The notes under the pieces: generated by a model
Databases searched by the model: none
The model's input: the letters and a program-made list of their open reading frames with translations, nothing else
Told to the model about the DNA's origin: nothing
In this document: piece after piece, positions 49,001-53,975 of the stretch
How positions within the stretch are numbered: position 1 is the stretch's first letter
Layout of the letters: each line of letters starts with the position of its first letter
Assembly: GCF_030867145.1 (NCBI RefSeq)
Contig: NC_134440.1
Location: forward strand, 1,426,001 to 1,490,000
Direction of reading: 5' to 3'
DNA from: Opisthocomus hoazin
Taxonomy: Eukaryota; Chordata; Aves; Opisthocomiformes; Opisthocomidae
DNA length: 64,000 bases
Program-made: the position numbers and the translations under genes

Positions 49001-50852
49001 TTGGAGCTGCCTCCACGGCTGTCCCTCATCTCCTCGGGCACTGGCCGTGTCCGTGGGGCAGCTGCTGGCAGGGACATGGTGGGCGAGGGCGTGCTCAAGG
49101 CCGTTCCTAGTGCAAACGGAGGAGCTCCTGGGGGGCTGGCCAGGGCTACCGCTCTGGGCGTGGAACGGGGGGCTGCACGGCTGCCCCTGCCCCAGCATTG
49201 CTGTCCAAGGAGGGCGGCTGTGGGTCTGCCCCGCTGCTGCTGCTCCAGCCCTCGGGATGAGCCTTTGGGTGCTCAGTCTGGGATGGGTGCAGAAGGGCTG
49301 GAGGGGAAGGGGTTAATGGGGTCCTCCCTCCTGCACCCCAGAACCGCGACAACTACATCCGCTCCTGCAAGCTGCTCCCCGATGGCCGGAGCCTGATCGT
49401 GGGGGGGGAGGCCAGCACCCTCTCCATCTGGGACCTGGCAGCCCCCACGCCCCGCATCAAGGCCGAGCTCACCTCCTCTGCGCCCGCCTGCTACGCCCTG
49501 GCCATCAGCCCTGACGCCAAAGTCTGCTTCTCCTGCTGCAGTGACGGCAACATCGTGGTGTGGGACCTGCAGAACCAGACCCTGGTGAGGTGAGCGCGGG
49601 GCAGGGGGCTGGTGGCACAGGGCAGCAATGTGGAGGGGGATGCTGGCAGCCCTGATGGCCGGGTCCTCGCCCTCTCCGTCCCCTCTTTCCCAGGCAGTTT
49701 CAAGGCCACACGGATGGTGCCAGCTGCATCGACATCTCCAATGATGGCACCAAGCTGTGGACAGGGGGGCTGGACAACACGGTGCGGTGCTGGGACCTGC
49801 GGGAAGGGCGTCAGCTGCAGCAGCATGACTTCAGCTCCCAGGTGGGGACTGGGGGTGGCTGGGAGCACCCCGGGGATGGCTGGGACCTCTTGTGCCGCTG
49901 CCTGACCCCGTCTCCCCCCAGATCTTCTCCCTGGGGTACTGCCCGACAGGAGAGTGGCTGGCGGTGGGGATGGAGAGCAGCAACGTGGAGATCCTGCACG
50001 TGACCAAACCGGACAAGTACCAGCTGCACCTCCACGAGAGCTGCGTCCTCTCCCTCAAATTTGCCTCCTGCGGTAGGCACGCCTGTCCCGGCCCCCTCGC
50101 TCGCAAGGGTCGTGGGTTTCCTCTCTGGGCTGCGTGTCGCAGGGCTCGTTGTACTGGGGACAAGCACTGGCTGCAGGAGCCAGCCCTGGTCCTGGGTGGA
50201 TGCTAGTGGTACCTCAGAGAAGCACCGTCTGTCCCTCCTGAAGGAACAGTTGCCGCTGCCCTCTCAGCTCTGCTGTCCCAGGGCTTCCCTTACTGTTCCC
50301 TAAAACGTCCCCGTGGCTACATGAGTGGCAGAGACATCGCCTTGCAGTCCCCACCTTGCGTCGCACAGCCCAGGCACGGTTTGCTGCCGCAATCCCGCGG
50401 GCGGGCCTGGTTCGGTGACAGGATGCTCTTTGTCCCTGCTGTCCCTCCCACAGGGAAGTGGTTTGTGAGCACAGGGAAGGACAACCTGCTCAACGCCTGG
50501 CGGACGCCCTACGGAGCCAGCATCTTCCAGGTACGGGGCGTGCGCAGCCCTTGGGGTGGGGGCAGATGTTTACTGGGGTGAGGTTGCCTGGAGCTGGGAC
50601 TGCCCAGTACAACCCAGCTGTAAATGTGCACCATAAACAAACTTGTCCTGGGCGCACCCCGGGGCCCCGTGTCCCAAGGGGGTAGGACCAGGACCTCACT
50701 CTGAGGCTGCTTGTTGTGCTTACCCCCTGCCCTCCTCTCTCCAGTCGAAGGAAACCTCCTCTGTCCTCAGCTGCGACGTCTCCACGGATGACCAGTTCAT
50801 TGTGACTGGCTCGGGGGACAAGAAAGCTACGGTGTACGAGGTCATTTACTGA
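37060..50852 (+). CDS. Groucho/TLE transcriptional corepressor, full length (20 coding exons); positional counterpart of TLE6
   Basis: Nuclear corepressor that tetramerises through its Q domain and binds repressors through a WD40 propeller. Exons: 37060-37083, 37692-37840, 38538-38601, 39088-39132, 43611-43673, 43876-43950, 44598-44787, 45240-45256, 45619-45723, 45874-45918, 46636-46791, 47092-47221, 47309-47493, 47565-47641, 47913-48162, 49342-49589, 49694-49841, 49922-50072, 50454-50530, 50745-50852. All are GT-AG and in phase; the product is 768 aa, starting MFPQNRTP and ending TVYEVIY. The middle region reads like TLE1/TLE4 ([13 protein letters not shown]), whereas the WD40 part reads like TLE2. 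It converges on TLE2, as human TLE6 does, so by position it is a TLE6 counterpart, though mammalian TLE6 is much more divergent. The orthology is inference, so no symbol is assigned. Confidence 0.93.
37692..43950 (+). CDS. TLE (+) exons 2-6: Q (tetramerisation) domain
   Basis: With exon 1 this encodes residues 1-140. After an unusual Ala/Ser-rich leader ([19 protein letters not shown]) come [39 protein letters not shown] and [18 protein letters not shown]. These are the coiled-coil helices that tetramerise and bind TCF/LEF. The leader replaces the QPFKFT-type segment of TLE1 and TLE4. Intron 4 (39133-43610) is the largest and carries two minisatellites. Confidence 0.9.
39903..40672 (+). repeat. 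GC-rich minisatellite in TLE (+) intron 4 (GGGGCTGCGT type)
   Basis: About 770 bp built from units such as GTGGGGCTGCGTGGGGCTGC and GGCTGCGGCGGGCCCTGGTG, arranged in longer higher-order repeats. It lies wholly inside intron 4. Long open frames crossing it, rich in Cys, Gly, Ala and Trp, are repeat artefacts. Confidence 0.9.
42681..43290 (+). repeat. 20-bp minisatellite, about 30 copies in exact register, TLE (+) intron 4
   Basis: The unit is TCCTGGGGGCTCTGTTGGGG. It repeats about thirty times with substitutions at a few fixed positions (GGGGGC/GGGGCC/TGAGGGC; TCT/TCC/TTT) and no visible insertion or deletion. It lies in the same intron as the 39.9 kb array and ends 320 bases before exon 5. 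Confidence 0.95.
44598..47641 (+). CDS. TLE (+) exons 7-14: GP, CcN and SP regions
   Basis: Residues about 141-441. Exon 7 encodes the GP region ([36 protein letters not shown]). Exon 8 is a 17-base microexon (45240-45256). Exon 9 carries a nuclear localisation signal (KKRKVEEKD). Exon 10 carries the acidic CK2-like site [14 protein letters not shown], next to the Ser-Pro site of exon 11. Exons 11-14 encode the Ser/Pro-rich region with the TLE1/4-like [22 protein letters not shown]1 element ends only about 17 bases before the exon 11 acceptor. Confidence 0.88.
46045..46093 (-). mobile_element. Very short CR1 3'-end fragment
   Basis: Three copies of the AATCACAG tail unit followed by TACTAGGGGTTGGAAGGGACC. 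Only about 50 bp of CR1 3' terminus are present, minus strand, in intron 10 of the TLE (+) gene, about 105 bp before a longer CR1 in the same orientation. Confidence 0.8.
46199..46618 (-). mobile_element. CR1 LINE, 5'-truncated, abutting the TLE (+) exon 11 acceptor
   Basis: About 420 bp of minus-strand CR1. The ORF2 C-terminus ([37 protein letters not shown]) is still open on the minus strand. Its truncated 5' end reaches to about 17 bases upstream of exon 11, so the likely branch-point zone of the host intron lies in CR1 sequence. It is antisense to the host gene. Confidence 0.92.
47913..50852 (+). CDS. TLE (+) exons 15-20: WD40 propeller
   Basis: Residues about 442-768 form the seven-bladed propeller that binds WRPW and Eh1 peptides. 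Recognisable blades include [87 protein letters not shown] and [20 protein letters not shown]. Exons 15-19 are nearly identical at the DNA level to those of TLE2 on the opposite strand, whereas exon 20 is only about 72% identical. See findings on gene conversion. Confidence 0.93.
49342..50010 (+). repeat. Arm A of inverted, near-identical block (TLE exons 16-18)
   Basis: 669 bp: exon 16, intron 16, exon 17, intron 17 and most of exon 18. It pairs with the reverse complement of 52870-53538 at 667 of 669 positions; the two differences fall one in each intron. The similarity stops at the first base of exon 16 on one side, where the upstream introns are unrelated, and at the PDKYQ/PEKYQ difference on the other. 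Confidence 0.95.
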
Positions 50853-52356: not shown

Positions 52357-53975
52357 TCAGTAGACCACCTCGTACACTGTGGCCTTCTTGTCACCAGAGC
52401 CCGTAACGATGAATTTGTCGTTGACTGCGATGTCACAGCTCAGCACCGATGAGGACTCTTTAGACTGAAGGTGAGAGGTGGGTGGTGAGGGCAGCATGGG
52501 GGGGGGCTGAAGCTGCCATCATTCCAACCCCCCCCCATCACCCCCCCATCCAAATGCCTCCCCCGCACCTGGAAGATGCTGGCTCCGTAGGGCGTCCGCC
52601 AGGCGTTGAGCAGGTTGTCCTTCCCTGTGCTCACAAACCACTTCCCTGGGGCAGGAGACAAAGGGAGGGGGGGGTGTCAGCATTTGGGACTTGATCCAGG
52701 GGGGCTGAGCATGTGGGTGGAACGAAAAGGACACATCTGGGACTCTATGGAGCCACCCCCGCCCCAAAGCCAACACAGCCAAAGCAAAAACCACAGCGCT
52801 TGCCTACCGCAGGAGGCGAATTTGAGGGAGAGGACGCAGCTCTCGTGGAGGTGCAGCTGGTACTTCTCAGGTTTGGTCACGTGCAGGATCTCCACGTTGC
52901 TGCTCTCCATCCCCACCGCCAGCCACTCTCCTGTCGGGCAGTACCCCAGGGAGAAGATCTGGGGGGAGACGGGGTCAGGCAGCGGCACAAGAGGTCCCAG
53001 CCATCCCCAGGGTGCTCCCAGCCACCCCCAGTCCCCACCTGGGAGCTGAAGTCATGCTGCTGCAGCTGACGCCCTTCCCGCAGGTCCCAGCACCGCACCG
53101 TGTTGTCCAGCCCCCCTGTCCACAGCTTGGTGCCATCATTGGAGATGTCGATGCAGCTGGCACCATCCGTGTGGCCTTGAAACTGCCTGGGAAAGAGGGG
53201 ACGGAGAGGGCGAGGACCCGGCCATCAGGGCTGCCAGCACCCCCCTCCACATTGCTGCCCTGTGCCACCAGCCCCCTGCCCCGCGCTCACCTCACCAGGG
53301 TCTGGTTCTGCAGGTCCCACACCACGATGTTGCCGTCACTGCAGCAGGAGAAGCAGACTTTGGCGTCAGGGCTGATGGCCAGGGCGTAGCAGGCGGGCGC
53401 AGAGGAGGTGAGCTCGGCCTTGATGCGGGGCGTGGGGGCTGCCAGGTCCCAGATGGAGAGGGTGCTGGCCTCCCCCCCCACGATCAGGCTCCGGCCATCG
53501 GGGAGCAGCTTGCAGGAGCGGATGTAGTTGTCGCGGTTCTCAATTGGGATAACAGCAAACAGGGCAAGTGAAGAAGGAACTGATCAGTGCAGGGGAGGGT
53601 GGGGGGAGAGGGATCTCCTTTCCTCATCACAAACATGAAAGGACCCTCTGTCCCCCTCCAGTGTAAGAGGGACACATTCCCCTTGCCAACCCCCTACAAA
53701 GTGCCTTTCTGTTCCTCCTCCTTACCAAGCAGTCCAGCTGCGCCACGGCCGTCTTGGTGCCCGGCTGCCCCACATCCCACACCTTCACACAGCCCTTGCC
53801 CCCGGTGTAGACGTGCTGCGTGGAGCCGCTGATGGTGACGGCACAGACCACCTCGCCGTGGGTCAGGGTGTGGAGCTGCCGTGCGTGCCGGGGGATGCCA
53901 GAGCCGATGAGGGCGTCGGGTGGGAAGGGCACCGGCTGCATCTGCCCGTCGGCGCTGACGTGGAAGGAGTAGGCA
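52357..53975 (-). CDS. TLE2: TLE2 WD40-coding exons
   Basis: Six exons encode the WD40 propeller, from [20 protein letters not shown] to VYEVVY. The amino-acid sequence is almost that of the facing paralogue, differing at GSTQ versus NSTR and PEKYQ versus PDKYQ, and widely in the last exon ([20 protein letters not shown]). Introns here are short: 162, 80, 104 and 187 bases, plus one of 104 bases in the last interval. Confidence 0.92.

Follow-up and report, generated by a model that had tools for sequence, protein, structure and literature searches.

Partial concerted evolution has lasted for more than 100 My in the linked mammalian gene pairs BMP8A/B, DDX19A/B and TUBG1/2, according to the available part of the report on them (PMC2720389), and Caenorhabditis contains paralogous pairs with maintained inverted repeats, for which the accessible text of the corresponding study gives gene conversion as one proposed mechanism (PMC1803023). 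For birds, the available portion of a zebra finch study describes a genome without PRDM9, in which recombination is enriched at CpG islands and non-crossover tracts have a mean length of about 32 bp (PMC12047795). Here we consider two convergent Groucho/TLE genes, gene A and gene B (TLE2), in a window of 64,000 nucleotides from the hoatzin, Opisthocomus hoazin (NC_134440.1, positions 1,426,001 to 1,490,000 of the forward strand; coordinates below are counted from the first base of this stretch). In hoatzin DNA, exons 15–19 of the two genes are nearly identical, and in birds the proteins encoded by exons 15 and 18 share residues within species. We are confident that exons 15–19 have undergone recurrent ectopic gene conversion, mostly from A to B, and that a tract of 669 bp records the newest such event in hoatzin.

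The first-pass annotation of this DNA had reported that bases 49342–50010 match the reverse complement of 52870–53538 almost perfectly. The match, 667 of 669 positions, is as it described, and so are the intronic location of both mismatches (49640, A/G, intron 16; 49871, C/T, intron 17) and the lengths, common to both genes, of exons 16 (248 nt), 17 (148 nt) and 18 (151 nt) and of the two introns (104 and 80 nt). The left end of this block is the first base of exon 16, the two acceptor bases also being identical, and four further differences lie between the 669-bp tract and the limits of the full block of 743 nt. Two further inverted blocks were absent from that annotation: 47898–48169 with 53719–53990 at exon 15 (272 nt, 96% identity) and 50444–50538 with 52561–52655 at exon 19 (95 nt, 97%). 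Both stop 7–15 nt past the exon edges. The inverted pairs within 40000–64000 all lie on exons, with none in the spacer 50853–52356 between the genes. The features concerned are as follows.

37060..50852, plus strand: gene A, Groucho/TLE, a splice model of 20 exons with a frame open from start to stop, 768 aa.
52357..59779, minus strand: gene B (TLE2), a splice model of exons 9–20 with an open frame, the numbering matched to gene A.
49342..50010, plus strand: probable newest conversion tract, gene A copy, comprising exon 16, intron 16, exon 17, intron 17 and part of exon 18; 2 of 669 positions differ.
52870..53538, minus strand: gene B copy of this tract and its presumed recipient, bearing the A-type residues L163 and D182.
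49340..50082, plus strand: full 743-nt high-identity block in gene A, with 6 differences, ending 10 nt into intron 18.
52798..53540, minus strand: full 743-nt high-identity block in gene B, the partner of 49340..50082.
47913..48162, plus strand: gene A exon 15, a homogenised block of its own with exon-bounded ends; 7 of 250 positions differ, synonymous divergence (dS) 0.067.
53726..53975, minus strand: exon 15 of gene B, from the splice model.
50454..50530, plus strand: exon 19 of gene A, 77 nt, identical to the gene B copy and within the 95-nt block.
52569..52645, minus strand: exon 19 of gene B, from the splice model.
47565..47641, plus strand: exon 14 of gene A, unconverted flank, differing at 42 of 77 positions from exon 14 of gene B (54307–54383).
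50745..50852, plus strand: gene A exon 20, an unconverted flank with saturated synonymous sites, differing at 30 of 108 positions.
52357..52464, minus strand: exon 20 of gene B, unconverted flank.

Counted exon by exon, the differences between A and B number 42/77 (exon 14), 7/250 (15), 0/248 (16), 0/148 (17), 3/151 (18), 0/77 (19) and 30/108 (20). Synonymous sites have reached saturation in exons 14 and 20, and dS lies between 0 and 0.067 in exons 15–19; in exons 16–17 none of 94 synonymous sites differs (dS 0), and introns 16 and 17, of equal length in A and B, are 99% identical. These values uphold the earlier proposal of recent conversion between old paralogues. The last exon is as diverged as had been claimed, with about 22 of its 30 changes synonymous. 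The accompanying statement that the surrounding introns and the N-terminal exons do not align holds for introns 14, 15, 18 and 19, which are unequal in length and give no blastn alignment, but not for the N-terminal exons, which align as protein (161 of 405 kept columns differ between hoatzin A and B).

Over exons 14–20 the longest identical coding run is 500 of 1059 nt; when the 82 differences were shuffled 100,000 times, no run was longer than 184. Within exon 15, five of the seven differences are packed into 12 nt (48061–48072, residues 49–52), as happened in 20 of 100,000 random draws; the cluster looks like a retained TLE2 island, which selection or short tracts could each leave. The GC content at third codon positions (GC3) of exons 15–19 is 0.89–0.90, compared with 0.75 (A, p 0.03) or 0.69 (B, p 0.002) in exon 20. 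Exon 19 is identical in hoatzin though its homology amounts to 77 nt only, between unrelated introns.

The first-pass annotation had also predicted that the central exons would cluster by species and exons 1–14 and 20 by gene, and a protein test of this was made in birds. Sequences were drawn from the best 120 of 973, 4282 and 4617 proteins, each the representative of a 90%-identity cluster. Hand-picking roughly one sequence per genus or species, with other isoforms and some species omitted, gave 79 A and 78 B sequences. Three B rows without the start string (Apteryx, Anser and Cygnus) were dropped, leaving 75 B sequences and 34 pairs; 33 pairs are from single species, the Falco pair combines two species and the Pelecanus pair two records. 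In 31 of the 34 pairs, Corvus, Falco and Pelecanus being the exceptions, A and B are entered with contigs of equal length. The mean number of A–B differences in exon 15 is 0.94 within pairs and 2.04 when permuted, and in exon 18 it is 0.26 and 1.18, and in either case none of 20000 permutations gave so low a mean. Exons 15 and 18 thus bear out the prediction; there is hardly any variation in exon 19, or in exons 16 and 17, the centre of the block that it concerned. Its other half, that exons 1–14 and 20 behave gene-wise, agrees with the data, in that neither shows an excess of likeness within species. Exon 20 gives 6.09 within pairs and 6.07 permuted, every permutation being at or below the observed value, and exons 1–14 (405 columns) give 171.1 and 170.7 (19818/20000 at or below). 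For exons 1–14 there is no within-species excess in any of the species sets, the pairs being slightly more different if anything.

The signals of exons 15 and 18 remain at 0/20000 with one species per order (n = 16), and both are kept in the 17 non-passerines; in the 17 passerines that of exon 15 is kept. Independent contrasts, computed on a tree from the other exons for those exon 15–19 sites that vary in A, gave 18.4 changes in the same direction in both genes, 0.2 in opposite directions and 5.4 unmatched. The corresponding values for exon 20 are 0, 0.03 and 2.98. One protein, P0080 of Phaethon lepturus, joins a TLE2-type N-terminal part to a gene-A-type exon 20, and is either a faulty gene model or the product of an inversion between the repeats that swapped the last exons.

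In many birds TLE2 (S/G49, Q52, M163, Y182, E245) can be told from gene A (N, R, L, D, D) at five sites. Taken in that order, and on the tree of the 34 pairs, these sites require at least 7, 6, 7, 4 and 4 changes in B but no change in A. The A state occurs in 40, 32, 16, 7 and 49 of 62 bird B sequences, the B state in 0, 2, 1, 2 and 1 of 78 bird A sequences. Since the changes fall mostly in B, copying probably runs mainly from A to B, with some in the reverse direction; Baryphthengus would be an example of the latter if that partial gene model is right. Bird TLE2 carries M163 in 46 and Y182 in 53 of 62 sequences. Hoatzin TLE2 has L163 and D182, a combination found elsewhere among the 75 B sequences only in Mergus, Taeniopygia and Rhinatrema. 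The 669-bp hoatzin tract is best read as a recent A-to-B overwrite that replaced M163 and Y182.

The identity of the two genes follows from their N-terminal halves. A tree of exons 1–14 joins gene A to fish tle2a (100/100), and gene B to the TLE2 of platypus, caecilian and reptiles together with one fish tle2b (93/96). A second tree, with two fish tle2b rows, again places A with fish tle2a (100/100). The paralogues therefore parted before the split between fish and tetrapods. In the first of these trees the row 'fish2a_Cyprinus' is P0024, from Sinocyclocheilus, and the Apteryx B row was included whole; in the second trees, of exons 1–14 and of exons 15–19, Oncorhynchus is the only fish tle2a row so named by its source, the others being placed by sequence. 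The NCBI label 'TLE1' does not suit gene A, as zebra finch TLE1 (P0061) lies elsewhere in the exon 1–14 tree; among the matches listed, gene A is named 'TLE1' by NCBI in most birds and TLE2 in a few.

The conflict between central and flanking exons that had been predicted is seen both in the trees and in approximately unbiased (AU) tests. In exons 15–19 all tetrapod A and B rows come together (100/99 and 100/98 in two trees), and the groupings of A with fish tle2a (p 1e-4) and of B with fish tle2b (p 6e-5) are rejected; in exons 1–14 it is the tetrapod A + B grouping that is rejected (p 2e-5). Within the first of the two exon 15–19 trees, in which the row 'fish2a_Denticeps' has a tle2b-type exon 20, A and B pair up in chicken and duck, in zebra finch and in falcon. 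The consensus sequences of tetrapod A and tetrapod B have ten derived residues in common that none of the compared rows of fish, TLE1, TLE3 and TLE4 contains. Together with the A + B grouping, these residues point to homogenisation that also predates the bird radiation. Fish tle2a and tle2b likewise group together in exons 15–19 (99/92; 86/93) and apart in exons 1–14. A few variable residues that the two fish genes have in common within fish groups are no more than a hint (4 of the 33 rows were left out because of their length).

Several observations weigh against recurrent A-to-B conversion, or limit its reach. Homogenisation is incomplete: the TLE2 rows of hoatzin, emu, potoo and reptiles still cluster in exons 15–19, with Varanus A inside (97/91). 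Nor are hoatzin's own A and B proteins sisters in that tree, since exons 15 and 18 still hold residues of TLE2 type. A single clade of bird A is rejected only marginally (p 0.037), and in the second exon 1–14 tree the fish tle2b rows form a weak branch of their own (62/79) and not one with TLE2. In the protein test, exon 17 carries little signal (0.97 within, 1.03 permuted, 606/20000), exons 16 and 19, which hardly vary, give no species signal, their within-pair and permuted means being equal to two decimals, and exon 18 is not significant in the passerines (1153/20000). At site 282, in exon 19, alanine occurs in 21 of the 75 B sequences but in none of the 79 A sequences, and this position is not homogenised. 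The A-type state in B can also be old rather than copied, given N49 in most reptile TLE2 rows and L163 and D245 in platypus and caecilian TLE2. The GC3 of exons 15–19 does not significantly exceed that of the upstream exons (0.84; A, p 0.10; B, p 0.06). Lastly, conversion outside hoatzin is suggested by proteins, and parallel selection would be possible there.

That explanation, in which both proteins were co-selected in parallel in each bird lineage and conversion took place in hoatzin only, draws on the protein-level nature of the evidence from other birds. We regard it as quite unlikely, since sites 8, 22, 35, 37, 72, 242 and 253 have the same state in A and B in 34 of 34 pairs, rare states included, and no such sharing occurs in exon 20 of the same domain. 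It is hardly credible that purifying selection on the WD40 propeller acted alone, without any conversion. The protein is extremely conserved, TLE1, TLE3 and TLE4 being much like A and B here, but such selection cannot hold introns 16–17 at 99% identity, or dS at 0 in exons 16–17, while exon 20 is saturated, and it makes no prediction of lineage-specific substitutions common to A and B. For hoatzin, the earlier argument that identity across introns excludes protein-level selection is therefore sound.

A recent partial duplication, by which one gene acquired its WD40 half anew from its partner, in place of recurrent conversion, would account for the 669-bp tract by a single event. One contiguous copy cannot, however, give the separate blocks of exons 15, 16–18 and 19 with unalignable introns 15 and 18 between them; exon 20 differs by gene nearly throughout (site 307 is Q in 79 of 79 A and K in 74 of 75 B sequences), and both genes are recorded in many birds. 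We give this explanation scarcely any weight. The assembly might instead be at fault, one gene having been built from the other's reads or one copy collapsed onto both places, as 743 nt at 99% identity is short enough to confuse a short-read assembler. The copies nevertheless differ at six places in the block and retain intact splice sites and frames, and proteins from other bird assemblies share exons 15 and 18 yet keep B-type residues in exons 16–17, which a collapse would not leave; an artefact is extremely improbable. A further variant would have the exon-bounded tracts of exons 15 and 19 made by RNA- or cDNA-templated repair, in keeping with blocks that end just outside the exons and, for exon 19, with such short homology. 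The main block holds both introns, and is hence DNA-templated, and exon-bounded ends are equally expected where DNA conversion meets unrelated introns, so that we judge this very unlikely.

Our model is that the WD40 exons 15–19 of these convergent, ancient paralogues would have been overwritten repeatedly by ectopic (interlocus) gene conversion. Since two introns lie inside the main tract, it was presumably copied from DNA, through DNA-templated repair. Copying would halt at the unrelated introns 14, 15, 18 and 19, giving separate tracts for exon 15, for exons 16–18 with their two short introns, and for exon 19; at least three tracts are needed because unalignable introns separate the blocks. 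The newest hoatzin event, of about 0.67–0.74 kb including the two introns, most likely ran from gene A to TLE2. Events of this kind would have taken place repeatedly as birds evolved, and probably before then, so that exons 15–19 evolved in concert and exons 1–14 and 20 independently. At an assumed rate of 2e-9 changes per site and year, and with the synonymous sites of exon 18 counted only roughly, the estimated age of the main tract is about 1.7 My (0.2–6.1) and that of the exon 15 tract 16 My (4–41).

The region between the two genes may bear on how conversion starts.

50853..52356, no strand: spacer between the coding ends, 1.5 kb, CpG-island-like at about 51251–52000, with a GC-rich minisatellite at 51506–51785.

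This CpG-rich spacer is a possible initiator of recombination, and the inverted layout may likewise have helped. The 0.67-kb tract is far longer than the mean of about 32 bp given in the available portion of the zebra finch study (PMC12047795), so one ordinary short non-crossover would be insufficient.

Both proteins have a Q-rich TLE_N domain and WD40 repeats (Pfam), and the 326-aa WD40 part of gene A aligns end to end with the TLE1 structure 1gxr. The gene A product is 100% identical to P0122, the hoatzin 'TLE1 isoform X1' of NCBI, and hoatzin TLE2 (P0247) matches gene B with 97% identity over 98%. The TLE2 exons upstream of exon 9 were not found within the window. Upstream of gene A, coding pieces at 13505–13717 and 26655–27746 contain ELM2 and PAP2 domains; they resemble MIER2 and PLPP2, which we take to be genes of human 19p13.3. 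Intron 4 of gene A (39900–40750 and 42600–43300) contributes many near-identical peptide repeats to the six-frame list, probably minisatellites. A 27-nt minisatellite occupies 55949–56456 in TLE2 intron 12 (18.6 copies, 90% matches), starting about 5 nt inside the intron and adjoining the splice donor of exon 12. Fragments at 46050–46620, 56640–56990, 61740–61920 and 20790–21216 are presumably CR1-like retroelements, recognised without a repeat library; one such fragment directly precedes exon 11 of gene A.

The pair matters because it belongs to a corepressor family central to development and is unusually old for one that evolves partly in concert. Exons 14 and 20 provide internal controls, and many bird genomes have been published, so that one can ask directly whether selection or local features of recombination maintain long-lasting conversion in animals without PRDM9. 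Gene trees, orthology calls and names taken from the WD40 half may be wrong or mixed, as the name given to gene A at NCBI illustrates, and TLE2-specific residues can be erased in single species. In human, TLE6 is, we assume, the convergent neighbour of TLE2, and mammalian TLE6 is a possible positional counterpart of gene A. We can offer only tentatively, and with more doubt than belief, a wider scheme in which the WD40 exons have evolved in concert since before the fish–tetrapod split, A mostly being the donor, with islands of TLE2 sequence held by selection, and in which TLE6 is a copy that escaped conversion and was free to diverge. TLE6 lacks the Q, GP, CcN and SP domains, according to the available part of its description (PMC9692235), whereas gene A has a Q domain.

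Concerted evolution of TLE genes was not named in the literature searched, which comprised titles and the starts of abstracts, most subscription journals lying outside the search; 'TLE' is absent from the main text of PMC2720389. As described in the available part of that report, BMP8A/B, DDX19A/B and TUBG1/2 resemble the hoatzin genes in being two linked paralogues in which homogenised exons, and at least one intron with them, form a mosaic with divergent ones in many species, and BMP8A/B is inverted, as are A and B. The mammalian pairs arose by duplication before the eutherian radiation, whereas the split of A and B predates fish and tetrapods. Unlike those pairs, moreover, A and B have coding ends 1.5 kb apart, and the C-terminal WD40 exons alone are involved (PMC2720389). 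The Caenorhabditis pairs, on the accessible text of that study, are similar in that divergent or convergent paralogues have near-identical inverted copies while other parts have diverged; there the inverted repeat takes in the complete intergenic sequence, whereas here the spacer and the last exons are excluded (PMC1803023). The A/B pair is a new and unusually old case of a known phenomenon, concerted evolution by gene conversion.

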